In this document: piece after piece, positions 9,645 through 42,265 of the stretch
Layout: every line of letters starts with the position of its first letter
Numbering within the stretch: position 1 is the first letter of the stretch
Source: a virus
Direction: 5' to 3' (one strand)
DNA length: 42,265 nucleotides
IMG/VR virus record: IMGVR_UViG_3300032282_004143
Location: 1-42,265 of that record
Program-made: the position numbers and the translations under genes
The notes under the pieces: generated by a model
Told to the model about the DNA's origin: nothing
Databases searched by the model: none
Seen by the model: the letters and a program-made list of their open reading frames with translations, nothing else

Positions 9645-10595
9645 ATGAATAAGACCAAGAAGCCTATTATGACCTCCGATATCAAGAACACGGTTGACAA
9701 TGCCATTGATTTTAAGCCGTCCAAGCTCTTTATGAAGGAGCTTAAGTGGAAGTATTTGGTTCGTAGTGTACTTCGCGGCAAGAATATTCTCATTGTTGGT
9801 GCATCTGGATCTGGCAAGACATATGCCGTTCAGTCTGTCGTTGATGCGCTTGGTCGTCGCGATAATTACTTTTACATCAACATGGGTGCCACGCAAGATC
9901 CTCGTGCTGCTCTGATCGGCAATACCCATTTCAACAAGGAGTCTGGTACATTGTTTGATGAGTCTCCGTTTGTGAAGGCTCTTCGTACTCCCAATAGCAT
10001 CATTCATCTCGACGAGCTTTCTCGTGCGCATCCTGACGCTTGGAATATTCTTCTCACTCCTCTTGATTATATTCAGCGTTATCTTCGTCTTGATGAGAAG
10101 CTTGGAAGCGAAAAGGTTCATGTCGCTGAAGGCGTGTGCTTTGTTGCGACCGCCAATGTTGGTAATGAATATACTGCCACTCGCGTGATGGACAAGGCGT
10201 TGCTTGATCGCTTCACGGTCAAGATTGAGATGGACATTCTGCCACAAAATCTTGAAATGCAACTTGTCAAGGAACATTGTCCTGACGCGGATCTCAAGAC
10301 AATGCTTGCGGTCACTGAAATTGCAGCAGCCACCCGTGAGTTTGCTTCGCAAGGTAAACTTTCCAAGTTCCTTTCCACTCGCAGCGTGAAGGAAATGGCC
10401 GAGCTTACAATTGATGGGTTCAAGTTGGTTGAGCTTGCCGAAACTATTATTTACCCCGACTATCCTGATGATGGTGGCGTTGACAGTGAACGCACGATGG
10501 TTAAGCAAATTGTTCAGAAATATGTTGCAAACGAAGGTGGGTCTGACAATCTGTATGCCAATACCACCGCTACTACCGAAACTCCTCCCTTCTGA
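9645..10595 (+). CDS. MoxR/CobS-like AAA+ ATPase
   Basis: This is a AAA+ ATPase of the MoxR/CobS class, enzymes that remodel or load cofactors onto partner proteins, usually with a VWA-domain partner. Walker A GASGSGKT lies at residues 52-59, Walker B IIHLDELSR near 118, the sensor region FVATANVGNEY near 165 and an Arg-finger segment DKALLDRF near 185. The C-terminal lid domain ends in a Thr-rich tail. The next gene, three bases downstream, encodes exactly such a VWA partner. CobS-like ATPases are known in T4-like marine phages, where they have been linked by name only to cobalamin synthesis. Here no cobalamin gene is near, so a protein-remodelling role is more likely. Confidence 0.85.
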   Translation: MNKTKKPIMTSDIKNTVDNAIDFKPSKLFMKELKWKYLVRSVLRGKNILIVGASGSGKTYAVQSVVDALGRRDNYFYINMGATQDPRAALIGNTHFNKESGTLFDESPFVKALRTPNSIIHLDELSRAHPDAWNILLTPLDYIQRYLRLDEKLGSEKVHVAEGVCFVATANVGNEYTATRVMDKALLDRFTVKIEMDILPQNLEMQLVKEHCPDADLKTMLAVTEIAAATREFASQGKLSKFLSTRSVKEMAELTIDGFKLVELAETIIYPDYPDDGGVDSERTMVKQIVQKYVANEGGSDNLYANTTATTETPPF

Positions 10596-10598
10596 TAA

Positions 10599-12590
10599 AT
10601 GAAAACTCAATACACAGAGTATTCCAAGTTCTGGCTTGGTGACGAATTCACCACGGAAAAGCTTGATACTGACGATACATATGGCCTTCTAAAGCTGGCG
10701 GCGTACCGCCGAGCCATTGGAAACTTTGTGTATATTCTTACGGGAAAAAGCATTCCCGTTAGATTTGCCGAGAAGACCACTTCCATGACCGATGGAAAGG
10801 TTGTATACATTGGTGGCGAACTGGCAAAGGGTCAGTTCGACCCCACCGTCGGTCTTGCTCTGCATGAGGCTTCACATATCGTAAAGTCCGACTTTGATCT
10901 CATCAAGACCATTTGGGGAAAGCTACCTAAAAATATCACGGCTGCTGCCAAGGGAAAATTCAATCAAAATGAATTGAGTGAACTTTGTAAGTATATCCTC
11001 AATGTTGTTGAAGACAGATATATCGACGCATGGGCGTATACCACTGCACCGGGCTATCGTGGATATTACGAGGCGCTGTACAATCGCTATTTCAACTTGC
11101 CTGAAATCAATAAGGCATTGAAGTCGAATGCGTATCGCACTCCCACGATCAAGAATTACAAGTTTCGTTTTACTAATCTTACAAACAAGAACACGGATCT
11201 TGATGCACTTCCGAGCTTTCGCAAGATTGCCGAAATGGTGGATCTTCATAATATTCTGAGAACCGAAATGTCTTCTCCCAAAAATCGTCTCGATTTGGCG
11301 TTCAAGATCGTGGAAGAGATTATCAAGAACGTTGTTGACGCCAAGACGGACGATAATAAGGACAAACAGGAAAAAGACGAAAGCGAAAACTCCGAAGGAG
11401 ATGACTCGGATGGTTCTCAAGATTTGTCCGATGCATTGGATGATATTCTTGGTGGTACCGATGGTGCGCCCACTTCTGTAAACGAAAGTGAAGAAAAAGA
11501 GTCCAAGGAAAAAGAAAGCGCATCGGATCTTTCTGAAAAGAAGATGCAGAAGATTGATAAGATTATTAAAAAGCAGGAGGACATTGTTAATCGCACCAAT
11601 GTCAAGGCGCCGTTCGATGCCAAGACTTTGAGCAAGCTTCAAGTTCTTGAGAAGAGTGGCGTTAGTATTGTGAACGTTGGAAATGAAGAAGGCGTTCCTC
11701 TGATTGATTGCATCGTTGTTAAAAATCTTACCAAAGAATTGATGGATGGTGAGGAGTTTCCATATAAATCTGGATATAGAACGGTTTCTGAAAATCCTCT
11801 GTCTGCTCGTGGTGTTCGTGAAGGTATCACGCTCGGCACCATGCTTGGTCGTCGTCTGCAAATTCGTTCCGAAGTCAAGACAACGAAGTTCACTCGCCTT
11901 GATAGGGGAAAGATTGATCGTAGGTTGATTTCCATGCTTGGTTATGAAGGAGAAAATCTTTTCTATCAGACCGCCGTTGACAAATATAAGAATGTTCATC
12001 TTCACATTTCTGTTGACGCATCTTCTTCTATGGCCAGCAAATGGGAAAAGACCATGACTACTCTTGTTGCCATTGCCAAGGCAGCAAGCATGATCAACAA
12101 TGTTCACATCAGTATTTCCTTCAGAAGCGGTGTGTATCTGTCGCGCCGTAACAAGGAAACTCCTTATGTCGTCATTGCTTATGACTCGCGCAAAGACAAG
12201 TTCAACAAAATTACTCAATTGTTTCCTATGCTATATCCCAACGGCTCTACGCCCGAAGGACTGGCGTTTCAAGCGATTTTGGATCAGATCCCTCAATCCA
12301 CATATGAAATGGATAGCTACTTTGTCAATCTTTCGGACGGAGAACCCGCATTTAATCCCGGTTACATGGGCATTGTTGCCTCTCGTCATACTCGCAAGCA
12401 GGTCAGAAAGATGATGGAAAATGGCGTGGAAATCATCAGTTATTATATCGAAGACGAACGATATAATGCTCATGTTAATGTACAGAATTTCAAGATCATG
12501 TATGGTAATGATGCGCAATTCATTGATGTAAAGAACGTTATACAAGTTGCTCATAGCCTTAATAAAAAGTTTTTGTCTAAGGCAAAGTAA
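10599..12590 (+). CDS. VWA-domain protein with N-terminal metallopeptidase-like domain (MoxR partner)
   Basis: The N-terminal region carries HEASH at residues 89-93, a zinc-binding HExxH motif as in the metallopeptidase-like domains found on some VWA proteins. An acidic Asp/Glu/Ser linker (about 250-310) follows. The C-terminal region is a VWA-like domain with the metal-adhesion motif DASSS near residue 472 (HISVDASSSMASKW) and the later NLSDGEP acidic site. Such proteins act with MoxR ATPases, as CobT with CobS or ViaA with RavA. The gene starts three bases after the ATPase stop, so the pair is one operon. The substrate is unknown. Catalytic activity of the HExxH site is not certain because a third zinc ligand cannot be fixed by eye. 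Confidence 0.8.
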   Translation: MKTQYTEYSKFWLGDEFTTEKLDTDDTYGLLKLAAYRRAIGNFVYILTGKSIPVRFAEKTTSMTDGKVVYIGGELAKGQFDPTVGLALHEASHIVKSDFDLIKTIWGKLPKNITAAAKGKFNQNELSELCKYILNVVEDRYIDAWAYTTAPGYRGYYEALYNRYFNLPEINKALKSNAYRTPTIKNYKFRFTNLTNKNTDLDALPSFRKIAEMVDLHNILRTEMSSPKNRLDLAFKIVEEIIKNVVDAKTDDNKDKQEKDESENSEGDDSDGSQDLSDALDDILGGTDGAPTSVNESEEKESKEKESASDLSEKKMQKIDKIIKKQEDIVNRTNVKAPFDAKTLSKLQVLEKSGVSIVNVGNEEGVPLIDCIVVKNLTKELMDGEEFPYKSGYRTVSENPLSARGVREGITLGTMLGRRLQIRSEVKTTKFTRLDRGKIDRRLISMLGYEGENLFYQTAVDKYKNVHLHISVDASSSMASKWEKTMTTLVAIAKAASMINNVHISISFRSGVYLSRRNKETPYVVIAYDSRKDKFNKITQLFPMLYPNGSTPEGLAFQAILDQIPQSTYEMDSYFVNLSDGEPAFNPGYMGIVASRHTRKQVRKMMENGVEIISYYIEDERYNAHVNVQNFKIMYGNDAQFIDVKNVIQVAHSLNKKFLSKAK

Positions 12591-17459: not shown

Positions 17460-18215
17460 ATGGATATTACCTTTTACGCAAATCCACCATACGATGGAAA
17501 CCCAGAGGGCATTATAGATGCACCCAAGGGTGCGCTGTTCTATAAAGAAGGTACTAAATATACCATAAACTATACAGGATCCGCTTCTACAGAATGGAAG
17601 CCTGTAACATTTGTACCATATCGCCAATCAAATTATGTATTGACTAATGAAGACATTTCATTGTTAAACTATAATTCTGGATCTTATTTGTACGAAAAAA
17701 CCACAAATGTTGGAAGCAAGACAGGGTGGAAAAGTATTGCACAGAAAAAACCAATCATACGTGTAACACTCACGCCAACCACAACGCCAACAAGTACCGT
17801 TACTCCTACACCAACTGTAACAGTTACTCCGACGGTCACGCGAACAATTACACCCACCCCAACTGTAACAACGACAACAACGGTCACTCCAACTGTAACA
17901 AGAACGCCGAAGCCGTCATTTACCCCCACTAGAACTTCGACGCCGACACCAACAGTCACTCCAACCGTAACAATAACTCCGACGGTTACACCTACGATTA
18001 CAACAACTCCAACAATTACCCCATCAGTAACGATAACTTCAACTAGCACGGCTACTCCGACTACAACGCCGACTCCAACAGTTACTGTCACTGTAACAAC
18101 TACACAAACTCCGACCGTTACTCCAACAATCACTCCAAGTATAACCCCATCTCCTGAGCCATATTATATATTTGCTATGGTTCCTCCGCCGGGTGGAAAC
18201 GAGAATTTCCCATAA
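17460..18215 (+). CDS. Surface-type protein with Thr/Pro mucin-like repeat tail, 251 aa
   Basis: The N-terminal 100 residues contain two copies of the Tyr-x-Lys...Trp-Lys module also seen in the 222-aa protein upstream (FYKEGTKYTINYTGSASTEWK and LYEKTTNVGSKTGWKS). From about residue 102 to 237 the protein is an irregular array of TPTVT, TPTIT and TPTPTVTPT units, almost only Thr, Pro, Val, Ile and Ser, which is an extended mucin-like stalk. A short hydrophobic end (YYIFAMVPPPGG) follows. Such tails are typical of stalks or O-glycosylation platforms. Two glycosyltransferase genes follow directly, so glycosylation of this tail is a natural hypothesis. There is no signal peptide, which fits a virion protein better than a secreted one. 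Confidence 0.65.
   Translation: MDITFYANPPYDGNPEGIIDAPKGALFYKEGTKYTINYTGSASTEWKPVTFVPYRQSNYVLTNEDISLLNYNSGSYLYEKTTNVGSKTGWKSIAQKKPIIRVTLTPTTTPTSTVTPTPTVTVTPTVTRTITPTPTVTTTTTVTPTVTRTPKPSFTPTRTSTPTPTVTPTVTITPTVTPTITTTPTITPSVTITSTSTATPTTTPTPTVTVTVTTTQTPTVTPTITPSITPSPEPYYIFAMVPPPGGNENFP
17764..18156 (+). repeat. Thr/Pro codon repeat tract
   Basis: About 390 bases of irregular repeats built on ACT-CCA, ACA-CCA, ACG-CCG and GTA/GTT/ATT-ACA codons, coding the Thr/Pro tail of the 251-aa protein. Synonymous third positions vary strongly, so the protein repeat is selected rather than being a recent DNA slippage product. Confidence 0.85.
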
Positions 18216-18226
18216 TTTAAAAATAA

Positions 18227-20542
18227 ATGGTTATGATTTCTCCAAGCGATATTACATTTGTAATACCGGCATACAATCTAAAGGCACACAGAATAAACAA
18301 CCTTAAGTTTATTCTTCCATTTATAATAGGTACCAACAGTAAAGTATTGTTGGTAGAGCAAGTAAAAGAAAATAAATCGGAGTTGAGTGGATTGTTGTCT
18401 GAAATAATAAATAACGAATGGGCATCAAACTTTTCACACTTGTTGTATATACACGATAGTGATTTGATACATAAACCGGGAATAATCAATTGGGCGACTA
18501 AAAATCATGTAGATACCAAATATGTGTGGGTAAATGATGTGGATTTTTACATGAAATATGCACAGGCGTTTCAAACCGAATGGACGGAAGATTTTATCCA
18601 ACCATATTCTGTAGGAAAGAAGTTATCAGAGAATGATACAAATAGAATAATAAATGGAGAAAAAATATCAGTGTCGTATGACGATATGGACTCGCGATAT
18701 ATTTCCATGTATGGCGCATTGTCTTTTATATTTGACAAAGAACGTTTTCTATCAATTGGTGGAATGGATGAAAGTTTATATGGATGGGGGAAAGAAGACG
18801 TGGAATTATCTAGAAGAGTAGAAGAAAATCACACAGTTCAAAAAATAGAACTGAAAGGAATTCATTTGTATCATCCAATAGAAACCTATTTGAAAAATAA
18901 TAATTCCACGAATGTGGATATGGCTGTGGTGACTTGTCATTTTAATTGGGGAGAATTTATAAATCCAGTCAGAAATTTGCATCGGTTCATAATGCAGATG
19001 AAAATAGATAACATACCCTTGTATGGAGTTGAATTATCATTGACTGAAAAATTTGAAACAGCTGGAATGGATGGTTGGAAACAAATAAAAGTCGATAAGG
19101 AGAATATTTTCTTTCAAAAGGAAGCGTGCATAAACTTGGCGGAAAAAATAGTTCCGAGCAAATATACGAAGATTGCTTGGATCGACCACGATTTGCATTT
19201 TACGAACAAGAATTGGTACAGTGACGCATCAAAAAAACTTGACGAATACAAAGTAGTTCAATTATTTTCACACGGAATAAAGACTGATAGATATGGAAAA
19301 CAGACAACAAAATCGCCAGGCGCCATATTTTCATATATCAATGCTCCAAAAAAATCAAAGTTGGATTGGATTATGAGCGCGGGAGATATTGGATATCCCG
19401 GTGGAGCACTAGCGGCGAGAAGAGAATTGTGGCAATATGGAGGATTGTATCCATATAGGGTAATGGGAGGCGGAGATACCGCTTTTATTATGGCCATGCT
19501 CAAACCAAAAATGGGATTACAAACCAACGAATTATTCACAGAAAGACACAACACGTGGAAGAAACAAATATTGGAATATGTAGGAGGTAGTGTTTCTTAT
19601 ATAGATGGTGAATTTATACATGAATGGCATGGTGACGTTGTTAATAGAAAATATGTGGATAGATATTCAATAATAAAACAATTAAATACAAAGAATATAG
19701 AACTTAATGAGCATGGAATAGTTCACAACTATGGCGATAGGACAATAAATCAAAATACGTTGATCTATTTTAAAAATAGAAACGAAGATGGTATTGTAGA
19801 AGAACATCCTATCCAAATACCAAACTTGGTTGTATACACATGCATAGTTGGAAAATATGATGTATTAAAAGAAGTTGCAGCCCCTGAAAAAAATATTGAA
19901 TATATTTGTTTCACTGATCAAATTGTGGAAAGTAAGACATGGAAAATAAAACCAATACCCGCTTTTCTGAAATCGATGGAACCTGCAAAAATAGCAAGAT
20001 GTGTGAAAATACTACCTCACTTGTTTTTGCAAGAGTACAATATATCTGTGTGGGTTGATGGAAGCATACAAATCCTTGGAGGAATACAAGAGTTTGTAGA
20101 TAACAATTTAAAGAACTATTTTGCAATACCGAAGCATCCAGATAGAGTATGTGTGTACGAAGAAGCTAAAGCAATAGTAAGACTGAATAAAGATAGTGTG
20201 GAAGTTATAGATAAGCAAATATTTGAATATAAGAAAAAAAATTATCCCGCAGACAATGGAATGGTGCAAAGTGGAATAATGATAAGAAAACACAACGATA
20301 AGCGGTGTATAACCATAGCAGAGCTTTGGTGGAAAGAGGTGCGAGAATACTCAAAGCGAGATCAGATGTCATTCAACTATTCCATTTGGAAGAAAAATGT
20401 GGTCATAGACGTTTTAAATCCAAATATAATTGTAGGAAAAAATTTTCAAATATGGACGCATATAGATAAAGGGTATAAGAAAGTTGTTCTTAAAGATGGA
20501 TATGGAGATATGAAAAATTACATGAACGGAGTTGAAGTATGA
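18227..20542 (+). CDS. Multidomain glycosyltransferase (two GT-A domains plus DUF616-like domain)
   Basis: Three regions can be seen. Residues 1-215 are a GT2/GT7-type domain: DITFVIPAYNL at the start, VWVNDVDFY as the Asp-x-Asp region, and GGMDESLYGWGKEDVELSRR, the signature of the galactosyltransferase C-terminal region. Residues about 225-480 are a second GT-A-like unit with IAWIDHDLHF (Asp-x-Asp), GYPGGALAARRELW and VMGGGDTAFIMAM. Residues about 530-765 resemble the DUF616 (TOD1/MUCI70-type) glycosyltransferase domain: VVYTCIVGKYD, ICFTDQ, PHLFLQEYNISVWVDGSIQI and DNGMVQSGIMIRKHN. There are no membrane segments. The TGA overlaps the next ATG. It probably acts on phage or host surface glycans, but substrates cannot be read from the sequence. 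Confidence 0.82.
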   Translation: MVMISPSDITFVIPAYNLKAHRINNLKFILPFIIGTNSKVLLVEQVKENKSELSGLLSEIINNEWASNFSHLLYIHDSDLIHKPGIINWATKNHVDTKYVWVNDVDFYMKYAQAFQTEWTEDFIQPYSVGKKLSENDTNRIINGEKISVSYDDMDSRYISMYGALSFIFDKERFLSIGGMDESLYGWGKEDVELSRRVEENHTVQKIELKGIHLYHPIETYLKNNNSTNVDMAVVTCHFNWGEFINPVRNLHRFIMQMKIDNIPLYGVELSLTEKFETAGMDGWKQIKVDKENIFFQKEACINLAEKIVPSKYTKIAWIDHDLHFTNKNWYSDASKKLDEYKVVQLFSHGIKTDRYGKQTTKSPGAIFSYINAPKKSKLDWIMSAGDIGYPGGALAARRELWQYGGLYPYRVMGGGDTAFIMAMLKPKMGLQTNELFTERHNTWKKQILEYVGGSVSYIDGEFIHEWHGDVVNRKYVDRYSIIKQLNTKNIELNEHGIVHNYGDRTINQNTLIYFKNRNEDGIVEEHPIQIPNLVVYTCIVGKYDVLKEVAAPEKNIEYICFTDQIVESKTWKIKPIPAFLKSMEPAKIARCVKILPHLFLQEYNISVWVDGSIQILGGIQEFVDNNLKNYFAIPKHPDRVCVYEEAKAIVRLNKDSVEVIDKQIFEYKKKNYPADNGMVQSGIMIRKHNDKRCITIAELWWKEVREYSKRDQMSFNYSIWKKNVVIDVLNPNIIVGKNFQIWTHIDKGYKKVVLKDGYGDMKNYMNGVEV

Positions 20543-21102
20543 TATACTACTCAATACCATACAGCATAGAAAAAAATCTTGCTGACTATTATAACAAATT
20601 CATGGAGGCGGTGCCGTCGGATGATGATTATGCATGTTTCGTTGATGGCGATACTATCTTCACAACCTCAGATTATGGGCATACCATACACAATGCGATA
20701 ACAGCATATCCAGATATAAATTGTTTTACATGCTATACAAACAGAGTATTTAATAAAAAGCAAGTCGTAGAAGGAATAGATTATGACTCCAATGATGTGA
20801 TATATCACAGAAAGATAGGAAGTACACTTCAAACTATATATGGATCAACATGCGTAGATATAACAGAACCTTTGATAGAGAAAGGAAAGCCAAGATATCT
20901 CAGCGGATGTTTGATACTTATCAAAAAATCATTGTGGCGAAAAATAAATGGATTTAAAAATTTAAATGCCATGTTGGGTGTTGACAATGAACTTCATAAA
21001 GATATTATTTCGGTAAATGAAAAATTATACTTGATGAAGGGAGTATATATCTATCATTGGTATAGATGGCCCGATATTAAAAACGTTTCTCACTTATTAT
21101 GA
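20539..21102 (+). CDS. Small GT-A-type glycosyltransferase, 187 aa
   Basis: A short GT-A-like protein. YACFVDGDTIFT (about residues 31-42) carries the metal-binding Asp-x-Asp, GKPRYLSGCLILIKKSLWRK matches the acceptor-side segment that usually follows, and MLGVDNELHKDI is the catalytic region. The segment order matches GT2 enzymes, although it lacks the N-terminal Rossmann strand and may depend on the upstream protein. It overlaps that gene by four bases (ATGA) and overlaps the next gene by four, which points to translational coupling of the whole glycan cluster. Confidence 0.75.
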   Translation: MIYYSIPYSIEKNLADYYNKFMEAVPSDDDYACFVDGDTIFTTSDYGHTIHNAITAYPDINCFTCYTNRVFNKKQVVEGIDYDSNDVIYHRKIGSTLQTIYGSTCVDITEPLIEKGKPRYLSGCLILIKKSLWRKINGFKNLNAMLGVDNELHKDIISVNEKLYLMKGVYIYHWYRWPDIKNVSHLL

Positions 21103-21701
21103 TGCAATACAAATTCTTGGATGTGGGATGTAAATTAGGAAGCTCTTTCTTGGGAATATCAAAAAGATACAAATATTTGCAAGAGCAGGGCATTGGCATT
21201 GATATAAACAAAAAGCACGTCGATGACTTCATAAAGTCGGGCAATCATGCGCTTGTTGCAAGTGCCGATGATATACCATTTGTTGATAACTCGTTTGAAT
21301 TGGTGATTTTCAATCACGTGTTGGAGCATATGCCAAATGAAAAGGTGGGATTTCAAGCTTTACGCGAATGCATCAGAGTATCATCAAACATAGTAATCGT
21401 TGGTCTTCCTTTCTTTGATGAAGATGAATACCTGAGAAGTTTAAAGTTAAAAACGTTTTATTCTGATTGGTCCGGTCATAAAAATATGGTTCATTTGAAA
21501 ACAATCATAAACTTTCTTGGCAACACTCCGTATAAAGTGACCATGAAGAAAAAGATAGAAAATAGTTTTGCGGATGAAATTTTGCCATTGTCTGCTCCGA
21601 AGAATTCTCACGAATATAATCAAGAAATTCATGGATTGAAAGATTATATTGAATTTGATAGAGATGTATGGAGAGAGTACGAGATTGCGATAACAAAGTA
21701 A
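21099..21701 (+). CDS. Class I SAM-dependent methyltransferase
   Basis: A Rossmann-fold methyltransferase of the Methyltransf_11 type. Motif I is FLDVGCKLGSS near residue 6, the acidic loop GIGIDIN binds the ribose of SAM, ADDIPFVDNSFELVIFNH is motif II/III and VLEHMPN motif IV. The SAM-binding core starts at the very N-terminus, so the enzyme is minimal. Its place between glycosyltransferases and a deacetylase-like gene suggests a glycan methylase rather than a DNA or RNA methylase, but the acceptor is unknown. Either ATG at 21099 or 21102 could be used. The first overlaps the upstream stop. Confidence 0.83.
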   Translation: MMQYKFLDVGCKLGSSFLGISKRYKYLQEQGIGIDINKKHVDDFIKSGNHALVASADDIPFVDNSFELVIFNHVLEHMPNEKVGFQALRECIRVSSNIVIVGLPFFDEDEYLRSLKLKTFYSDWSGHKNMVHLKTIINFLGNTPYKVTMKKKIENSFADEILPLSAPKNSHEYNQEIHGLKDYIEFDRDVWREYEIAITK

Positions 21702-21706
21702 TGTAG

Positions 21707-22303
21707 ATGAAGCAGAAAGACCCACAGCATGTAATTTTCAGAGATGATGATGTGGGGAGACCAACTCCAATCTCTAATATTGCAAACCTTCATAAAATGT
21801 TCGTGGAAGCGCATGAATTATATAACAAATATAATGTTATACATGAGATTGGATATATAACAAACGGACCAAAGGAACATATGTCCGATACAATAAAATA
21901 TATATTAGAACAAAAAAATATAGTAGTTCAACTCCACGGCCATGACCATTATGATTTTAGCAAACTTTCCGAAAAGGAACTTAGATATCAATTTGAAAAT
22001 GGTATAAAATCTATTCAAGACATTTTTGGAACGGCGCCAACTAGATGGTATCCCCCGTGGCATAAAACTAGTGAATTGGCAATACAGATTGCGTCTGAAT
22101 ATGGATTACGTTCTACACCAATCCAAGCCGGATCAATCGGACACTTCGTAACAAATTACAGAAAATATATTAAACAAACCCCAGTAAAAATTGTATGTCA
22201 TCATTTTTGGAGCGACCATCAGCAAGCAGAATTGGAAAATGGGTTCAAGATATATATCAATATATTAAAAGAGCATTATGATATTGAACTTATGCAATTC
22301 TAG
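21707..22303 (+). CDS. Polysaccharide deacetylase-like (NodB-type) protein
   Basis: The NodB/CE4 fold is suggested by its motif order: VIFRDDDVG (motif 1, catalytic and metal Asp), VQLHGHDHYDF (motif 2, His-x-His-type metal site), RWYPPWHKTS (motif 3) and VCHHFWSDHQQ (late His motif). These enzymes remove acetyl groups from N-acetylated sugars. The protein is 198 residues, about the size of a bare catalytic domain, and has no signal peptide, so it would act in the cytoplasm or in the virion. It closes the glycan cluster and could trim the sugar made by the upstream glycosyltransferases. Activity on a lipid-linked sugar or a nucleotide sugar is equally possible. Confidence 0.75.
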   Translation: MKQKDPQHVIFRDDDVGRPTPISNIANLHKMFVEAHELYNKYNVIHEIGYITNGPKEHMSDTIKYILEQKNIVVQLHGHDHYDFSKLSEKELRYQFENGIKSIQDIFGTAPTRWYPPWHKTSELAIQIASEYGLRSTPIQAGSIGHFVTNYRKYIKQTPVKIVCHHFWSDHQQAELENGFKIYINILKEHYDIELMQF

Positions 22304-30766: not shown

Positions 30767-30844
30767 TACGTACACGGTAAGTAATACTACGTAAGATAGT
30801 ATTTTTACGTATATAGAATTTTTTTCGCGATATACCTCGTATAT
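30767..30844 (+). promoter_or_regulatory. Control region of the curli-like operon with repeated TACGTA palindromes
   Basis: TACGTA occurs three times (30767, 30788 and 30806), spaced 21 and 18 bases, about two helical turns. AATACTA (30783-30789) can pair with TAGTATT (30797-30803), and ATATAC (30830-30835) mirrors GTATAT (30839-30844). No TTGACA box is seen. The region is much richer in palindromes than other intergenic stretches and may bind a dimeric regulator. Confidence 0.4.
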
Positions 30845-30868
30845 ATTATATCTATTGTATACAAGAAA

Positions 30869-31327
30869 ATGTATATAATATGTGTCATATTACTCTTATC
30901 ATTAGTTTGCAACCTGCAAGCCAGTGATATGGTGCATTCATTCAAGTCGTCTTCGTTTAGCGGCGCTAACTTTTCTGCTACACAAATGACCATAGAAAAT
31001 TTGGCACGCACGCGAAAGCAAGGTATAAGAGACCTCGCCAAATCAGAAGCACAACAGGCAGCATTACAGGCACAAAACACACCACTGAACACATTTGTCA
31101 ACAATCTACAAGCCAGAATATATTCGCAATTGGCTTCACAGGTTACTGACCAACTATTCAACTCTACTGGTCAGACATTTGGTATCATAAACCTGCAAGG
31201 CGGAGCAACTGTAACTTGGCAGAGGAATGGAGATTTTGCAACGTTGTATATAATAGATCCTGTAAGCGGCAATACTACACAGATTACCGTGCCTATAGGA
31301 TCTCTGACCCCACCACCAAACGGATGA
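30869..31327 (+). CDS. csgF: CsgF-like curli assembly factor
   Basis: In bacteria CsgF is a small secreted protein that plugs into the CsgG channel and helps nucleate curli at the cell surface. The product has a signal peptide (ICVILLLSLVCNLQA, cleavage after about residue 18), then a short extended Phe/Ser/Asn-rich N-terminus (SFKSSSFSGANFSATQ) like the CsgG-binding region of CsgF. A helix follows (LNTFVNNLQARIYSQLASQV) and a C-terminal strand region (FATLYIIDPVSGNTTQITVP) that matches the CsgF C-terminus. The length of 152 residues is close to E. coli CsgF (138). The stop overlaps the csgG start (ATGA), which supports the call. Confidence 0.85.
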   Translation: MYIICVILLLSLVCNLQASDMVHSFKSSSFSGANFSATQMTIENLARTRKQGIRDLAKSEAQQAALQAQNTPLNTFVNNLQARIYSQLASQVTDQLFNSTGQTFGIINLQGGATVTWQRNGDFATLYIIDPVSGNTTQITVPIGSLTPPPNG

Positions 31328-32127
31328 AAAAACATGTATTCCTCATTCTATCAATGTTATTTCTGGGTGGATGTGCTTCAATCAAAAGTAAGCCAAGCAT
31401 CCTAGAAGTACCAAAGACCCAAACTTCTCCATTGGAGAAAGAACTGTTGTCGTTGCCAAACATAAACGGTCCAAGAATAACAATCGGCGTTTATGGATTT
31501 GCAGACAAAACGGGAGCAAGAAAAACAGCAGATAACTATGCTTCATTCTCTGCGGCTGTAACACAAGGTGCGGAAAGTTGGCTGATAGATGCTTTGCGAA
31601 TGGCTGGCAATGGAAACTGGTTCCAAGTTCTTGAACGTGCAAGTCTTGATAATATCATCAAGGAACGCCAGCTGATCGCACAAACAAGAGAAAGCTTCCA
31701 AGGAAAGAATTCTGAAAAACTGGCACCAATGCTATTTGCAGGTATACTTGCTGAAGGCGGTATCATAGGATACGACAGCAATATTATCACGGGTGGAGCA
31801 GGGGCAAATATTCTTGGCATATCTGCAAATACACAATATCGCAAGGATGTGGTAACAATATCACTGCGCCTTGTCAGTGTGCAGACAGGAGAAATACTAA
31901 TCAGTACCGCAGTAACAAAAACAATTTCCAGCGTGGCGGTTTCAGGTAACCTATTCAAGTTCTATGAGCACGGTACAGTGCCTATGGAGTCTGAACTTGG
32001 ACTGACCGCCAATGAACCCAATACCATTGCAGTACGCAGTGCTATTGAAAAAGCCGTGGTAGACATCATCTATCAGGGTGAAAAGATGAACCTCTGGAAG
32101 TTCAAGCAAGAAAGTAAAAAACCATGA
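31324..32127 (+). CDS. csgG: CsgG-like outer-membrane secretion channel lipoprotein
   Basis: CsgG is an outer-membrane lipoprotein that forms a nonameric pore through which curli subunits leave the cell. A lipobox LGGC gives a lipidated Cys at residue 17. Family features follow: RITIGVYGFADKTGARK, the FSAAVTQGAESWLIDAL helix, WFQVLERASLDNIIKERQLI, the LLFAGILAEGGIIGYDSN-type segment and the beta region VVTISLRLVSVQTGEILIS. The 267-residue length is close to E. coli CsgG (277). The start at 31324 is chosen because it gives the lipoprotein signal and overlaps the csgF stop. I recall CsgG-type genes being annotated in some marine T4-like phages, so the gene alone may not be unique. Confidence 0.93.
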   Translation: MKKHVFLILSMLFLGGCASIKSKPSILEVPKTQTSPLEKELLSLPNINGPRITIGVYGFADKTGARKTADNYASFSAAVTQGAESWLIDALRMAGNGNWFQVLERASLDNIIKERQLIAQTRESFQGKNSEKLAPMLFAGILAEGGIIGYDSNIITGGAGANILGISANTQYRKDVVTISLRLVSVQTGEILISTAVTKTISSVAVSGNLFKFYEHGTVPMESELGLTANEPNTIAVRSAIEKAVVDIIYQGEKMNLWKFKQESKKP

Positions 32128-32984
32128 ATACACAAAACATAGTAAAGTTTATATTCTTTACAGCAGTCGTTGGATTGCTTTCAACGGCTATGGCCCAAAC
32201 AAGTGGACCTCTCGCGGCAACCGCAGGAAACTCACTGGGCAATCAAATATATGTAAATCAAATCACAACAGGTGGAGACACCACGTTCATTCAGAGCGGA
32301 GGATCAAACAGAGTCGGTTCATTTGCACTACCAAGCAACATCACTGGAGATAATATCTTCTTGGAGTTTAGACAGATTGGTAATGGAAACTCAACTGATT
32401 TCTCGATGGTCGGAGCCAACAATCTTAAATTGCTGTCTGCATTTGCAGGAAACAACAACGAACAAAGATTGTACTTCAACGGTGCCAACAATAATATGAA
32501 CTTCAAGTTTGACGGAAACGGAAACAAACTTTGGATCAACGGTGACACTACAGTATATCGTGATGCAGGAGAAAGCACAGCTACTGATAAAGCTACTATC
32601 TCTGACTCTGATATGCAAATCAAGTTTGCTGGAAACAACAACTTGTTTGCATATGCCACAACCAATGGCTTGAACAACTATCTGAAATATGATGTTACTG
32701 GAAACAGTAACAATATTAAGACAACACAGATCGGCAGTGCTGGCACAGGAAACCGCCAATCTGGTCATTATCAAGATATCGCCATCACTGGCGGCAGCAA
32801 TGATATCATGATATATCAACAAGGCACTGTTCAACAATACTTCCAATATAGTTTGATCGGAAGTAACAACGTTGTTCGTATATCACAAACAGCAACAGCA
32901 GCACCAACATTCACAGTTAACAACAATAATATGCTGGCTCCACAAGGTCCAGCAAGCGCAACAACACTCATAAGCAACCTATAA
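32124..32984 (+). CDS. Secreted Asn/Gly-rich repeat protein, curlin-like amyloid candidate
   Basis: A signal peptide (IVKFIFFTAVVGLLSTAMA) is followed by about 260 residues of imperfect repeats built on Gly-x-x-Asn turns (GSNRVG, GNGNST, GANNLK, GNNNEQ, GANNNM, GNGNKL, GNNNLF, GNSNNI, GSNDIM, GSNNVV) with alternating hydrophobic strands and Gln between them. This beta-solenoid style resembles curlin subunits (CsgA/CsgB), which have a repeating Ser-x5-Gln-x-Gly-x2-Asn pattern, but the repeats are looser and longer, so it is not a canonical curlin. It overlaps the csgG stop by four bases, so it is the probable cargo of that channel. There are no Cys residues. Amyloid formation is inferred. Confidence 0.78.
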   Translation: MNTQNIVKFIFFTAVVGLLSTAMAQTSGPLAATAGNSLGNQIYVNQITTGGDTTFIQSGGSNRVGSFALPSNITGDNIFLEFRQIGNGNSTDFSMVGANNLKLLSAFAGNNNEQRLYFNGANNNMNFKFDGNGNKLWINGDTTVYRDAGESTATDKATISDSDMQIKFAGNNNLFAYATTNGLNNYLKYDVTGNSNNIKTTQIGSAGTGNRQSGHYQDIAITGGSNDIMIYQQGTVQQYFQYSLIGSNNVVRISQTATAAPTFTVNNNNMLAPQGPASATTLISNL

Positions 32985-32985
32985 G

Positions 32986-34098
32986 ATGTATAAAAATGTT
33001 ATATTGTTTTTTGTACTATATGGAAACTTGCTTGGATTTGCGGGTAAGCTGACGGAGGTGACTGGTCCTACACAAGTTAGTAGGGCCAGCACCAAAATAG
33101 AAGGCAAGGTGGATGTTGGTGTTGAAATGAATGACACCATAGAGACCCTCAAGGCAAGAGCAGGCATAACATTTGAAGATGGTACACGAGTACAATGTAC
33201 AGAGTTCAGCAAACTGGTTATAGATGAGTTTGTGTATGATCCAAGCAGCGGCAAAGGAAAGCTTGGAATGAAAGCAACGATGGGTACGGTCAGATATGCA
33301 TCTGGATTGATCGCCAAAAATAACAAAGAAGAAGTTAGAGTAAAGACACCCACGGCATCAATATCTGTACGTGGAACAGACTTTAGCATGACGGTGGATG
33401 AACTTGGTAGAAGTCTTGTGATATTGCTACCATCTCTGCCACAATTTGGTCCTCCTGTGGTAGGAGCCATCACAGTAAGCAATGGAATGGGCACGGTTGT
33501 ATTGACCAAGGCATTTCAAGCAACAATGGTAGCATCAACGGCGGTTGTACCATCTGCACCAGTATTATTGAACTTTGAGGACGAAACAAAAGTTAATAAT
33601 ATGCTATTGATAGATACACCAAAGAACGTCACGGAGTCTGCTAAAGAAGCCAAGAAAGCATCTCCGCAGACAACAAAGGGTGACGACGAAGGATCAAATA
33701 AGAAGAAACCAGAAAGCAAGACCGCAGTAGCACAAGCCACAGCCACTCCGTCCGAAGCAACAACCGCCGCAACAACTGCTCAAACACAAGAACAGCCGCA
33801 ACAAGTAGAAACAAAGCTTGATATCAATGCCATAAAACCAGAAACAAATAAAGCTGTGATGGAGAGTATTGCAAAGAAGACAGAGACAACTATATCTGTT
33901 CCAACGACGACAACAAATAACGGCTTTACAACGGATGGAACACGAGCTATCTTATATGTATCTAATGGTAACAATGTTGTTTGGTATACACTCAAATATG
34001 ATACCAATGCCATCATTACCATATCAAACGGATCAAATGCTACGGAATATCCTCTTAACTTTGGCGGTAAACTAAAAATCAACATTATTCAGAAATGA
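32986..34098 (+). CDS. Secreted FecR-domain protein
   Basis: A signal peptide (NVILFFVLYGNLLGFAG) precedes a FecR-type domain (about residues 20-175): ITFEDGTRVQCTEFSKL, LGMKATMGTVRYASGLIAK and the hallmark VKTPTASISVRGTDFS. A Ser/Thr/Lys/Gln-rich disordered linker (about 205-285) and a C-terminal beta repeat (ILYVSNGNNVVWYTLKYD, then TISNGSNATEYPLNF) follow. FecR domains occur in signal-transfer proteins and in exported surface proteins. The protein lies in the periplasm or outside. The C-terminal Asn/Gly strands resemble the upstream repeat protein. It shares a four-base overlap with the cyclase gene. FecR next to CHASE2 cyclase is a recurrent bacterial pair. Confidence 0.85.
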   Translation: MYKNVILFFVLYGNLLGFAGKLTEVTGPTQVSRASTKIEGKVDVGVEMNDTIETLKARAGITFEDGTRVQCTEFSKLVIDEFVYDPSSGKGKLGMKATMGTVRYASGLIAKNNKEEVRVKTPTASISVRGTDFSMTVDELGRSLVILLPSLPQFGPPVVGAITVSNGMGTVVLTKAFQATMVASTAVVPSAPVLLNFEDETKVNNMLLIDTPKNVTESAKEAKKASPQTTKGDDEGSNKKKPESKTAVAQATATPSEATTAATTAQTQEQPQQVETKLDINAIKPETNKAVMESIAKKTETTISVPTTTTNNGFTTDGTRAILYVSNGNNVVWYTLKYDTNAIITISNGSNATEYPLNFGGKLKINIIQK

Positions 34099-36155
34099 AG
34101 TCTCATATACTCAAAATCTTTGGAGTTGGATTATTGATACTAACAGCACTTGTTGTTCTACGAATAAAGGATCCATATCCAATAGAAGTATTGAGACTAA
34201 AGGGACTGGACTACTATCAGCGTAAACAAGATAAGGTAAAAGGTGAGAATGTTGTAGTCGTTGAGATTGATGAAAACAGCCTTGATGCTAAAGGACAATG
34301 GCCTTGGCCAAGAAACGAACTGGCAGATGGTATCAAGAAAGCATTTGATGCTGAAGCCGCAGCTGTTGTATTGCCAGTCATATTTGCAGAGAAGGATAGA
34401 ATGAACGGCGATGCTGCCTTTGTTGAAACACTTCAGAAGTATCCTGTTATTACGGCGCAATCAGCAGCGGTCAAAGGCAAGGGTGTCCCTGTTCCAAGAG
34501 GATTGGCAACCATAGGTGGTAATGCAGATGGTTGGCTATATGATTATCCAAATGCGATTGGACCTGTAAAAGAGATAGGTGAAAATAGTGCTGGTGTAGG
34601 AATGCTACTAACAGCACCTGAACTTGATGGTGTGGTAAGAAGATTGCCGCTTGTTATACAAGTAAACAAGGAAACATATCCTACAATGCCGCTTGAAATA
34701 CTTCGTGTATTTGGAAATGAACAAAGTTATCAAGCCAAGATAAATGATGGCGGAGTGCAGGCAGTAAGAGTCAAAGGATCAAACCCAATCAACACAGACA
34801 GCAATGGACGAGTATGGATCAACTTCAAGTACAAGTTTGATAGCATATCATATACAAGCAATGATTGGAGCAAAGTAAAAGGAAAGATCGCTGTTATTGC
34901 TCTTACAGCAGAAGGCTTGGCCAACACCGTAGCAACGCCTGTTGGTACAGCATATGGACACGAAGTTAGTATGCAGACATTACAGATGCTTGTTGATGGC
35001 AATAGATTAGAAAGAAAAGCAGAGTTTGATTTGTATGAACTGGCAAGTGGAATAGTTGCCGCTTTGCTTCTTATAACAATAGCAGCATATCTTGGTTATG
35101 TTTATAATGGAGTTATTGTAGCAATACTAGTATCTGCTCCATATGCCATCGGGTTTTATCTATATAACAAAAATGGATATCTAGTTGATTATACTTGGCC
35201 AACGCTTGGATTGTTCCTTCCTTGGGTAGGTGCTATCTTTATGAGATTTGTGATGGAGTTTAAGCTCAAGCAGCAGATCAAGAAGCAGTTTGGAACATAT
35301 CTATCTCCTGCTATGGTAGAAAAACTACAACAGAACCCAGATCTGCTCAAACTTGGCGGCGATGAAAGAGAACTATCCATCATGTTCACAGATGTTCGTG
35401 GCTTTACATCCATTTCAGAACACTATGGCAAGAATGTTCAAGGTCTTACAATGATCATGAACAGATATATGACAGCAATGACCCAAGCAATTTTGGATAA
35501 CAGTGGAACATTGGACAAATACATTGGTGACGCCCAAATGGCATTTTGGAACGCGCCGCTTGATGATAAAGATCATGCCAAGAATGCCGTTAAGACCGCA
35601 CTCAAGATGTTGAAGGATCTTGATACATTCAATGCCGAGATAGCCAAGGAAGGTGTACCAGCATTTGGCATGGGACTGGGTATCAACACTGCAACAGTCG
35701 TTGTGGGTAATATGGGAAGCACGCAGCGATTTGATTACACCTGCCTTGGTGACGGTGTTAATCTGGCATCAAGACTTGAAGGTCAAAGCAAGCCATATGG
35801 AACAAGAATAGTCATTGGTCCAAAAACACACGAGTATATAAAAAATGACTACCAATGTTTTGAACTTGATTGCATAGCGGTCAAGGGCAAGAAAGAAGGT
35901 GTACATATCTATACGCTTCTTGAAAAACAACTATCGGATAGCGACTATTTCATAGTTCTGGCAGGTCATGCAGCAATGCTCAATGACTACAGAATGCAGC
36001 GTTGGGATAATGCTGTATTTCATGCTGAAGAATTGAAGCGCCAAAACAAGGAGTTGAAAAAGTACTACGAAATGATGATTGAAAGAATAGCGGAACTTCG
36101 TACACAGAATCTTGACAAAGATTGGGATGGCGTATATAGAGCAACAAGCAAGTAA
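34095..36155 (+). CDS. CHASE2-domain class III adenylate cyclase
   Basis: Residues 5-22 are a membrane anchor. Residues about 35-305 are an extracytoplasmic CHASE2 sensor (VVVVEIDENSLDAKGQWPWP, KYKFDSISY). Three hydrophobic segments follow (about 315-385), then a class III cyclase domain (about 425-610). Catalytic residues are present: FTDVRGF (first metal Asp near 432), YIGDAQMAF (second metal Asp near 479) with the Lys before it for adenine selection, DYTCLGDGVNLASRLEG with the Thr expected for adenylate cyclases, and the transition-state Asn and Arg. A C-terminal helical tail (KRQNKELKKYYEMMIERIAEL) follows. The enzyme should make cAMP in response to an outside signal. It is the fifth gene of the operon. 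Confidence 0.92.
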   Translation: MKSHILKIFGVGLLILTALVVLRIKDPYPIEVLRLKGLDYYQRKQDKVKGENVVVVEIDENSLDAKGQWPWPRNELADGIKKAFDAEAAAVVLPVIFAEKDRMNGDAAFVETLQKYPVITAQSAAVKGKGVPVPRGLATIGGNADGWLYDYPNAIGPVKEIGENSAGVGMLLTAPELDGVVRRLPLVIQVNKETYPTMPLEILRVFGNEQSYQAKINDGGVQAVRVKGSNPINTDSNGRVWINFKYKFDSISYTSNDWSKVKGKIAVIALTAEGLANTVATPVGTAYGHEVSMQTLQMLVDGNRLERKAEFDLYELASGIVAALLLITIAAYLGYVYNGVIVAILVSAPYAIGFYLYNKNGYLVDYTWPTLGLFLPWVGAIFMRFVMEFKLKQQIKKQFGTYLSPAMVEKLQQNPDLLKLGGDERELSIMFTDVRGFTSISEHYGKNVQGLTMIMNRYMTAMTQAILDNSGTLDKYIGDAQMAFWNAPLDDKDHAKNAVKTALKMLKDLDTFNAEIAKEGVPAFGMGLGINTATVVVGNMGSTQRFDYTCLGDGVNLASRLEGQSKPYGTRIVIGPKTHEYIKNDYQCFELDCIAVKGKKEGVHIYTLLEKQLSDSDYFIVLAGHAAMLNDYRMQRWDNAVFHAEELKRQNKELKKYYEMMIERIAELRTQNLDKDWDGVYRATSK

Positions 36156-36228
36156 CAACCTTACAAAATCTTAATATATCTTTCTCTTTTTTTAACCTAA
36201 AAACAAATAGTTATAAACATAGACTCAT

Positions 36229-36681
36229 ATGAAAACAAAAATACTAATATCAATACTATCGATGACGCTACTGTCATCTTGTGCAAGTGGTCAGGCAAAC
36301 ACAGCAGCTGGTGCAGCCGTTGGAGCCGTGGCAGGTGCGGCAATTGGCGCAAATAATCATGTTCCTGTGGCTGGTGTTATCACAGGTGCGATTGTGGGTG
36401 GTCTAATTGGTAATGCAATGGATCAGAATTATGGAACGCCAGTACCTACTCCTTTACCACCATCTTCTCAAATTCCATCGCCAGATATTGTAGTGAAGGA
36501 AGCACCTGTAGTGATAGTTGAAACACCTGTTATAATTGATGAGCGAATCTGGGTAGGAAATGATCTATGGATATATTCATATCATGGTTTTCGTGATGCA
36601 CATGGCCACATTCGTTACCAAAACCGTGTTCCATTCCATCGTGTGTTTGTAAGAGGCGGCATGGGATACAGAAGACATTAA
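36229..36681 (+). CDS. Glycine-zipper lipoprotein
   Basis: A lipoprotein signal with lipobox LLSSC gives a lipidated Cys at residue 18. Residues about 24-68 form a glycine zipper of Ala/Gly/Val (AAGAAVGAVAGAAIGANN, then ITGAIVGGLIGNAMDQN), as in outer-membrane proteins that insert or oligomerise in membranes. A proline-rich linker (VPTPLPPSSQIPSP) and a Tyr/His/Arg-rich C-terminal domain (WIYSYHGFRDAHGHIRYQNR) follow. It is 73 bases from the cyclase stop and may be the last gene of the export operon or its own unit. It could stabilise the CsgG channel or help perturb the envelope. The function is not established. Confidence 0.8.
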   Translation: MKTKILISILSMTLLSSCASGQANTAAGAAVGAVAGAAIGANNHVPVAGVITGAIVGGLIGNAMDQNYGTPVPTPLPPSSQIPSPDIVVKEAPVVIVETPVIIDERIWVGNDLWIYSYHGFRDAHGHIRYQNRVPFHRVFVRGGMGYRRH

Positions 36682-37357: not shown

Positions 37358-37678
37358 ATGGCAGACGAAAAAGACCTCTTCAAAGAATTTATAACTGGCG
37401 GATGGATTGTTGCAGCCGTTGGTGCATTAGGAATGCTTGCTCGCAGTTTACTTGATAATGTCGAAAGAAGTCATAAAGAGCACGCAAAGAGAATATTTGC
37501 TGCCGCCATATGCTCATCTATAGCATGGTTTATTCTTGAACAAGTTGAAGTTAGTAGCTTGACAAAAGCAATAAGTTATGGTGTAGTAGGTGTAGTCAGT
37601 CCAGAAATCTTACAAGGTGTTACGACATTGGCAAAGAGATTTGCCAAGAAGCCGCAAGACTTTGTGAAGAAGAAATAA
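37358..37678 (+). CDS. Holin-like small membrane protein (LydA-like), 106 aa
   Basis: A short membrane protein with a hydrophobic N-terminal segment (GGWIVAAVGALGMLARSLL, residues 14-32), a basic amphipathic loop (ERSHKEHAKR), a second segment (IFAAAICSSIAWFILEQV) and a third (AISYGVVGVVSPEILQGV), ending in a Lys-rich tail. The size, topology and ASxIAWFxLEQ-type pattern recall phage holins of the LydA type, which make lethal membrane lesions to start lysis. It lies just before the tRNA array with no endolysin gene nearby in this window, so the lysis role is inferred from structure only. Confidence 0.6.
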   Translation: MADEKDLFKEFITGGWIVAAVGALGMLARSLLDNVERSHKEHAKRIFAAAICSSIAWFILEQVEVSSLTKAISYGVVGVVSPEILQGVTTLAKRFAKKPQDFVKKK

Positions 37679-41746: not shown

Positions 41747-42265
41747 ATGAGTAAAATCACTATAGAAAATCTAGCCGCCAGATTGTCGGCTGTTGAAGCT
41801 AAGTTAGCCACGTTGGATGCCATTCAAGCTCCAAGCGTTGATGCATCAAGCATCCAAGAAATAAACATTCGCCTATCCATTGTTGAAACGGCAGTCGATG
41901 GATTGCTTGCAAAGCCTGCTGAAGAAGCAGTCGCCGCATTAGTCGCTGCTCCAGCAGATCAACCGCCTGTTCCAGTCGAGGAAGTGGTGGCATTGAGCCC
42001 TGCCGCAGATGTACCAGCAGCCGCCGCAATTGTAACAGACGTTGTTGAAGCACAAGCAGCAGCCGAAGCACCATCTGCTCCAGAAGTTGCTGAAGTAGTA
42101 GCAGCCGCAGTTGCAGCAGTAGTTAATGCTCCAGCCGATGTGGTCACAAACCCAGAAGCTCTCACAGAAGCAATTGCGGAAGCAGTTGCAGAAGTTGCTA
42201 CCATAGAAGATCCAGTAGTTGCTCAAGCAGCAGCCGATGCTGTTGCTCAGATTATTGAAACAGCA
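41747..42265 (+). CDS. Ala/Val/Glu/Pro-rich protein (3' partial)
   Basis: The frame is open from the ATG to the window edge (173 codons). The first 55 residues look like a coiled coil (ENLAARLSAVEAKLATLDA, then INIRLSIVETAVDGLL). From about residue 58 the protein is low-complexity Ala, Val, Glu and Pro (AAPADQPPVPVEEVVA, AAAVAAVVNAPADVV), with short hydrophobic helices separated by Pro and Asp. This could be a structural, linker or stalk protein. The composition resembles phage tail or head decoration linkers but I cannot assign it. The C-terminus is outside the window. Confidence 0.65.
   Translation, partial: MSKITIENLAARLSAVEAKLATLDAIQAPSVDASSIQEINIRLSIVETAVDGLLAKPAEEAVAALVAAPADQPPVPVEEVVALSPAADVPAAAAIVTDVVEAQAAAEAPSAPEVAEVVAAAVAAVVNAPADVVTNPEALTEAIAEAVAEVATIEDPVVAQAAADAVAQIIETA

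Follow-up and report, generated by a model that had tools for sequence, protein, structure and literature searches.

A curli-type export operon with a FecR-domain protein and a CHASE2 class III cyclase in a T4-like phage

Gene content of the operon

The virus record IMGVR_UViG_3300032282_004143 from IMG/VR was analysed over its whole length of 42,265 nucleotides (hereafter the window), which includes a curli-type secretion operon continued by genes for a secreted FecR-domain protein and a CHASE2 class III adenylate cyclase. A preliminary description, made from the letters alone, had proposed CsgF, CsgG, FecR, CHASE2-cyclase and glycine-zipper lipoprotein genes, and Pfam profile searches matched each of them in its place. 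The features are as follows (aa, amino acids; E, expectation value; AF2, AlphaFold2 model).

30869..31327, + strand: csgF-like gene (152 aa, signal peptide; Pfam CsgF, E 2.4e-14)
31324..32127, + strand: csgG-like gene, outer-membrane channel lipoprotein (267 aa from the ATG at 31324; Pfam CsgG, E 4e-49)
32124..32984, + strand: curlin-type repeat protein, the presumed cargo (286 aa, signal peptide; curlin homology)
32986..34098, + strand: secreted FecR-domain protein (370 aa; Pfam FecR, E 2e-9)
33034..33555, + strand: FecR domain, about residues 17-190 (confident beta domain in AF2)
33919..34092, + strand: curlin-like C-terminal beta module of FecR, residues 312-369 (C-terminal motif, Gln369, AF2)
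34095..36155, + strand: CHASE2-class III adenylate cyclase (686 aa; Pfam, catalytic residues)
34143..35060, + strand: CHASE2 domain, residues 17-322 (Pfam CHASE2, E 1e-40)
35370..35918, + strand: class III cyclase domain, residues 426-608 (Pfam Guanylate_cyc, E 2e-20)
36229..36681, + strand: glycine-zipper lipoprotein, probably accessory (150 aa; Pfam, E 7e-7)

The tight packing noted earlier was found again, with ATGA overlaps at the csgF/csgG, csgG/curlin and fecR/cyclase junctions and a gap of 1 base between the curlin and fecR genes. The module had also been called fused, which holds for the adjacency of its genes and in no other sense. The glycine-zipper lipoprotein gene starts 73 bases past the cyclase, and its membership in the operon is less clear because of this spacing. 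A glycine-zipper-related gene follows the cyclase in loci L004, L009, L013 and L014, and not in L005 or L010.

Export genes and the curlin-type cargo

The window CsgF is 32-36% identical to those of the Pelagibacter phage HTVC008M and the Methylophilales phage Melnitz, and its Pfam score lies above the curated cut-off. The profile of the phage CsgGs finds E. coli CsgG among the solved structures (E 1e-61), and the CsgG channel homologue of the window has a lipobox. The CsgE gate, which is a usual but not essential part of type VIII (curli) secretion, was not found in 15 records, fragments included. With CsgE absent, the type VIII components present in the window are CsgG, CsgF and a curlin-repeat subunit, the last recognised via its profile and orthologues.

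The 286-aa repeat protein had no direct Pfam match. It aligns with cur1 of Melnitz (E 2e-10), which in turn matches Curlin_rpt (E 9e-6), and the sole Protein Data Bank (PDB) relative of its orthologue profile under E 0.001 was 8c50 (E 7e-6), the solved structure of a 'Curlin associated repeat-containing protein'. The Gly-x-x-Asn repeats on which the first reading of this protein as curlin-style had drawn were borne out, with 12 occurrences of G-x-x-N against a mean of 4.5 and a maximum of 11 in 2000 shuffles, and the Q-x-G-x-x-N columns are conserved among the phage orthologues. The AF2 model is a strand-turn-strand ladder of moderate confidence (mean predicted local distance difference test score, pLDDT, 73), for which Foldseek returned no significant solved match. 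Judging from these alignments, the cargo is a curlin homologue, and putatively an amyloid-forming, surface-fibre protein.

A pore for the uptake of nutrients or cofactors, in which the curlin and the sensor would be remnants of an ancestral operon, would fit the missing CsgE gate, and uptake through the pore has been suggested before (PMC7029224, PMC9599517). Remnants would decay, however, and divergent phage clades have retained the gene set together with its order and the catalytic residues; we consider this explanation very improbable.

The FecR protein carries a curlin-like tail

The FecR-fold domain of the phage protein was matched by Foldseek to PupR (6ovk) and to 4m0n, and a PDB sequence search with the phage FecR gave no match. 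As regards FecI/FecR iron signalling, neither a sigma factor nor a receptor is among the listed neighbours in the window, and the FecR protein begins with a signal peptide. In its AF2 model the FecR domain is followed by a disordered linker and then by a C-terminal beta module, which is folded.

All 74 distinct phage FecRs end in the motif [hydrophobic]-x-[hydrophobic]-x-Q followed by 0-3 residues (I-x-I-x-Q type). The same C-terminal motif was present in 59/98 curlin frames, compared with 12/1112 other open reading frames (ORFs) of these loci. Gln369 is invariant in the phage FecR, and the linker is not conserved. The 74 tails do not represent 74 independent events, because the phage sequences are related. 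None of 16 FecR-domain frames from bacterial loci had the motif, some of those frames being cut by the locus end. In a profile comparison the module was matched to the final two repeats of curlin (P 1.3e-4, probability 54%). These resemblances suggest that FecR contacts the curlin or the export channel.

The CHASE2 cyclase and its pairing with FecR

The cyclase has one N-terminal hydrophobic segment and three more after CHASE2, and its sequence is that of a CHASE2 receptor. The catalytic residues D433, K475, D479, N556 and R560 are all present, which gives the window the full class III adenylate cyclase set (two metal-binding Asp, Lys plus Thr/Asp, Asn, Arg). The analysis supports the earlier proposal that a phage encodes, side by side, a secreted FecR protein and a CHASE2 cyclase whose catalytic residues are intact. 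The two metal-binding Asp residues, the Lys and the Arg occur in 78/78 phage cyclases; the Asn is kept in 53/78, among them that of the window. In the other 25, among them L002 and Melnitz, the catalytic Asn is replaced by Ser.

Placed beside a CHASE2 receptor, the secreted FecR-domain protein of the window forms a FecR-CHASE2 sensor pair. CHASE2 cyclases are common in the bacterial class sampled, that of a Rhodobacteraceae metagenome-assembled genome (MAG), and 25 of 148 bacterial CHASE2 cyclases, among the matches listed and outside G001, had a FecR match within 5 kb, where a crude estimate gives ~1.5% expected. In the Burkholderia BiofilmReg operon a FecR gene adjoins a CHASE2 kinase (PMC5192318). 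The pair occurs in Alphaproteobacteria without curli, and was presumably taken over by the phages.

The position and integrity of the cyclase gene vary in some relatives. At loci L112-L116 (contigs of 39-364 kb) it lies on the opposite strand, in L113 after a desaturase-like ORF, so that the operon does not always include it. The cyclase gene of G426 (297-kb contig; 83190-83995, L313) is interrupted by ~0.8 kb; a self-splicing intron was considered here and rejected, as Rfam gave no match.

A cyclic-nucleotide-binding membrane protein in relatives

A search for cyclic nucleotide monophosphate (cNMP)-binding domains in 14 long or complete relatives yielded one record, in which the gene adjoins csgF. 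The cNMP gene is divergent from and directly upstream of csgF in 7 contigs, and is found ~13-15 kb downstream of the cyclase in six contigs that are the closest relatives of the window (G401, G415, G419, G420, G422 and G426). Four of these share the order cyclase, holin, window-end ORF and cNMP gene, where the window-end ORF is the following feature.

41747..42265, + strand: ORF truncated where the window ends, marking the syntenic stretch (relatives G401, G419, G426, G415)

In these four relatives the cNMP gene starts 5.6-6.1 kb past the start of this ORF. As the window ends within it, a cNMP gene would fall just outside the window.

The encoded protein has a canonical phosphate-binding cassette, is strongly similar to the cAMP/cGMP-binding domains of solved kinases and channels, and carries one or two C-terminal hydrophobic segments. 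These segments, and a Pfam match confined to the cNMP domain, ruled out a CRP-type receptor. The protein was not found in the GenBank phage collection, Melnitz and HTVC008M included; as a 140-kb contig of the window's group also lacks it, it is regarded as accessory. Most other contigs with a cNMP gene end before the operon would appear, and a 184.8-kb contig, which carries the gene right at its end, has neither csgG nor the cyclase.

That most operon-bearing phages are without the cNMP gene agrees with the main reading of PMC9599517 and PMC7029224, in which the operon modifies the cell surface. A curli fibre would then exclude other phages or capture siblings, the cyclase would act via host cAMP receptors, and FecR would sense no curlin. 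Such an account does not explain why the curlin-like FecR tail is conserved, and a periplasmic CHASE2 domain implies an envelope signal; surface modification free of sensing therefore seems unlikely to us.

Distribution, origin and phage setting

Scans of IMG/VR confirmed at least 566 CsgG and at least 531 FecR relatives. The five-gene order, which the preliminary description had suggested looking for in related phages, was found in more than 100 IMG/VR loci, and it is nearly invariant in the loci analysed. The second curlin gene, frequent but not universal in pelagiphage clusters, is absent from the window's clade, where the cyclase gene overlaps fecR. A small CsgG tree separated the phages from five alphaproteobacterial sequences with support 100/99. 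The phage CsgGs fall into three main groups, and that of the window is distinct from the HTVC008M/Melnitz group.

In the bacterial class sampled, only 7/385 genomes had a CsgF match at E <= 0.001, and neither FecR nor cyclase was found near the curli genes in five ordinary alphaproteobacterial curli loci. A bacterial source of the whole operon was rejected, given that the three strong full-length matches in bacterial genome contigs look like phage contigs in MAGs. Phage curli contigs at L151, L152, L153 and L210 were apparently binned into bacterial MAGs, and could mislead origin searches.

Two kinds of additional gene were seen at the relatives' loci. A secreted protein of 600-1445 aa lies between FecR and cyclase in L118, L120, L124, L138, L143, L144, L146, L147, L068 and L075; it often has an outer-membrane-like '...F' C-terminus, had no Pfam match in the three tested, and is perhaps an autotransporter-like adhesin. 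Short membrane-protein ORFs of 92-94 aa occur near csgF or FecR in many loci (e.g. L113:11105-11386). Pfam found no kinase in the one tested, a member of PHROG 18771, whose function is unknown, and these ORFs may be the 'histidine kinases' of PMC9599517.

The window encodes UvsX, a DnaB-like helicase, ribonucleotide reductase, DNA polymerase and clamp loader, together with rIIA/rIIB-like proteins and 13 tRNA genes. These genes identify it as a T4-like phage, and its DNA polymerase is nearest to that of Microcystis phage Mel-JY01 (41% identity). An assembly join with a bacterial contig, named earlier as a possible artefact, was excluded because phage genes flank the operon on either side and the order RNA ligase-csgF...cyclase-holin was seen again in independent contigs. 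The T4-like late promoter TATAAATA had no plus-strand match at the operon, and its overall matches were not above chance.

Elsewhere in the window, a Thr/Pro-rich repeat ORF (TPTPTVTPT...) stands behind a small membrane protein (17460-18215), an AT-rich island holds glycosyltransferase-, methyltransferase- and deacetylase-like ORFs (18227-22303), and an AAA ATPase-like ORF adjoins a 663-aa ORF that includes a VWA-like stretch and matched no PHROG (9645-12590). Downstream of the operon in relatives L277, L311 and L313, 23-35 tRNA genes were found in the stretches covered, compared with 13 in the window.

Proposed function

We propose that FecR senses curlin traffic, that the CHASE2 cyclase responds by making cAMP, and that a phage receptor, where present, or host proteins read the signal, with a probability of roughly 0.4. 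The infected cell would build a curli route with CsgG in the outer membrane and CsgF at its mouth, through which, with no CsgE gate supplied by the phage, the curlin-type protein would reach the surface. FecR would stay periplasmic, its FecR domain partnering the periplasmic CHASE2 domain, and its flexible linker would present the curlin-like strand, which could pair with passing curlin subunits or with the base of the fibre. CHASE2 would in this way be informed of curlin load or fibre assembly, and the cyclase would answer with cAMP, which in the window's clade could be read by the cNMP-binding membrane protein and elsewhere by host proteins.

Several observations weigh against this proposal. 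The canonical Asn is missing in 25/78 phage cyclases, in some jumbo contigs the cyclase is separate and on the other strand, and the profile match of the FecR tail with curlin is moderate. No cNMP gene occurs in the window, in Melnitz or HTVC008M, or in the 140-kb contig of the window's clade, and no cell clumping was observed in Melnitz infections (PMC9004378).

A role in lysis was proposed for the Melnitz cluster (PMC9004378), and the window has a suitable neighbour.

37358..37678, + strand: holin-like gene, kept after the cyclase in the window's clade (PHROG holin, E 2.5e-5; synteny)

In that case CsgG/CsgF would form a gated pore, the cAMP-responsive membrane protein would provide a second trigger, and envelope sensing would act with the neighbouring holin to time lysis. 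The holin-like gene 1.2 kb downstream, which is conserved in relatives, and the C-terminal hydrophobic segments of the cNMP protein fit this idea. It leaves the conserved curlin genes and the curlin-like FecR tail unexplained, and the holin is outside the operon, so that lysis timing appears quite unlikely. As to the outcome of curlin sensing, the holin neighbour slightly favours lysis and the conserved curlin a surface fibre, and a fibre serving superinfection exclusion or aggregation is favoured only slightly over a direct lysis trigger.

In the phage lineage of the window, the system could tentatively be seen as a self-contained phage cAMP circuit, with a curlin-mimicking FecR sensor, a CHASE2 cyclase and a cNMP-gated membrane protein acting on the envelope, by which the virus would measure its own curli export. 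The FecR tail and the linked cNMP protein split the question of purpose into two, namely whether FecR reads curlin and whether cAMP acts on the envelope by way of a phage protein. Sensing of a similar kind may exist beyond phages, as is suggested by the bacterial FecR-CHASE2 cyclase pairs, some of which include long FecR-domain proteins.

Comparison with known systems

The phage operon has the CsgG channel, CsgF and a curlin-type cargo in common with bacterial curli (type VIII secretion). It differs in lacking CsgE and in the added FecR and cyclase, both absent from the five alphaproteobacterial loci. Bacterial FecR-CHASE2 pairs, in Alphaproteobacteria and in Burkholderia BiofilmReg (PMC5192318), likewise place a FecR-domain protein beside a CHASE2 receptor, but the phage FecR bears the curlin-like tail, whereas several bacterial partners are long and without it.

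Similarity to Pycsar extends to the class III cyclase domain (PycC, E 1e-25) and to the cNMP-binding domain of the relatives' protein (PycTIR, E 5e-13 to 9e-8). In contrast to Pycsar, the phage cyclase is built as a CHASE2 receptor and has residues of the adenylate type (adenine-type Lys/Thr), the linked cNMP protein bears hydrophobic segments and lacks a TIR domain, and the system is borne by the phage itself. The adjacent pair of a PycC pyrimidine cyclase and a cNMP-binding effector that defines Pycsar is not found in the window, which has no cNMP-binding gene.

The closest systems are the phage curli clusters, published in 2020-2022 (PMC7029224, PMC9004378, PMC9599517) and reported as widespread in the ocean (PMC9599517). 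The preliminary description knew of no described phage system joining these parts, and this novelty claim fails because the set is annotated in HTVC008M and Melnitz and described in PMC7029224, PMC9004378 and PMC9599517. The last of these treats the CsgF, CsgG, CsgA/B, FecR and adenylate cyclase of pelagiphages, and considers defence against superinfection as well as the capture of siblings. Like the window, the HTVC008M, Melnitz and pelagiphage clusters have csgF, csgG, curlin, FecR and a CHASE2-type cyclase in the same order, the annotated order in HTVC008M and Melnitz being csgF-csgG-curlin-FecR-curlin-cyclase. The window differs from these two in having neither a second curlin gene nor the short upstream 'histidine kinase' ORF and in adding the glycine-zipper lipoprotein; its four larger proteins are 32-49% identical to theirs, and its relatives have the cNMP-binding membrane protein. 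A word search found no mention of CHASE2 in PMC7029224, PMC9004378 or PMC9599517, and cyclic-nucleotide-binding proteins are not mentioned in PMC9599517. What the present analysis adds to these three accounts is the curlin-like tail of FecR, the CHASE2 nature of the cyclase and the clade-linked cNMP-binding protein.

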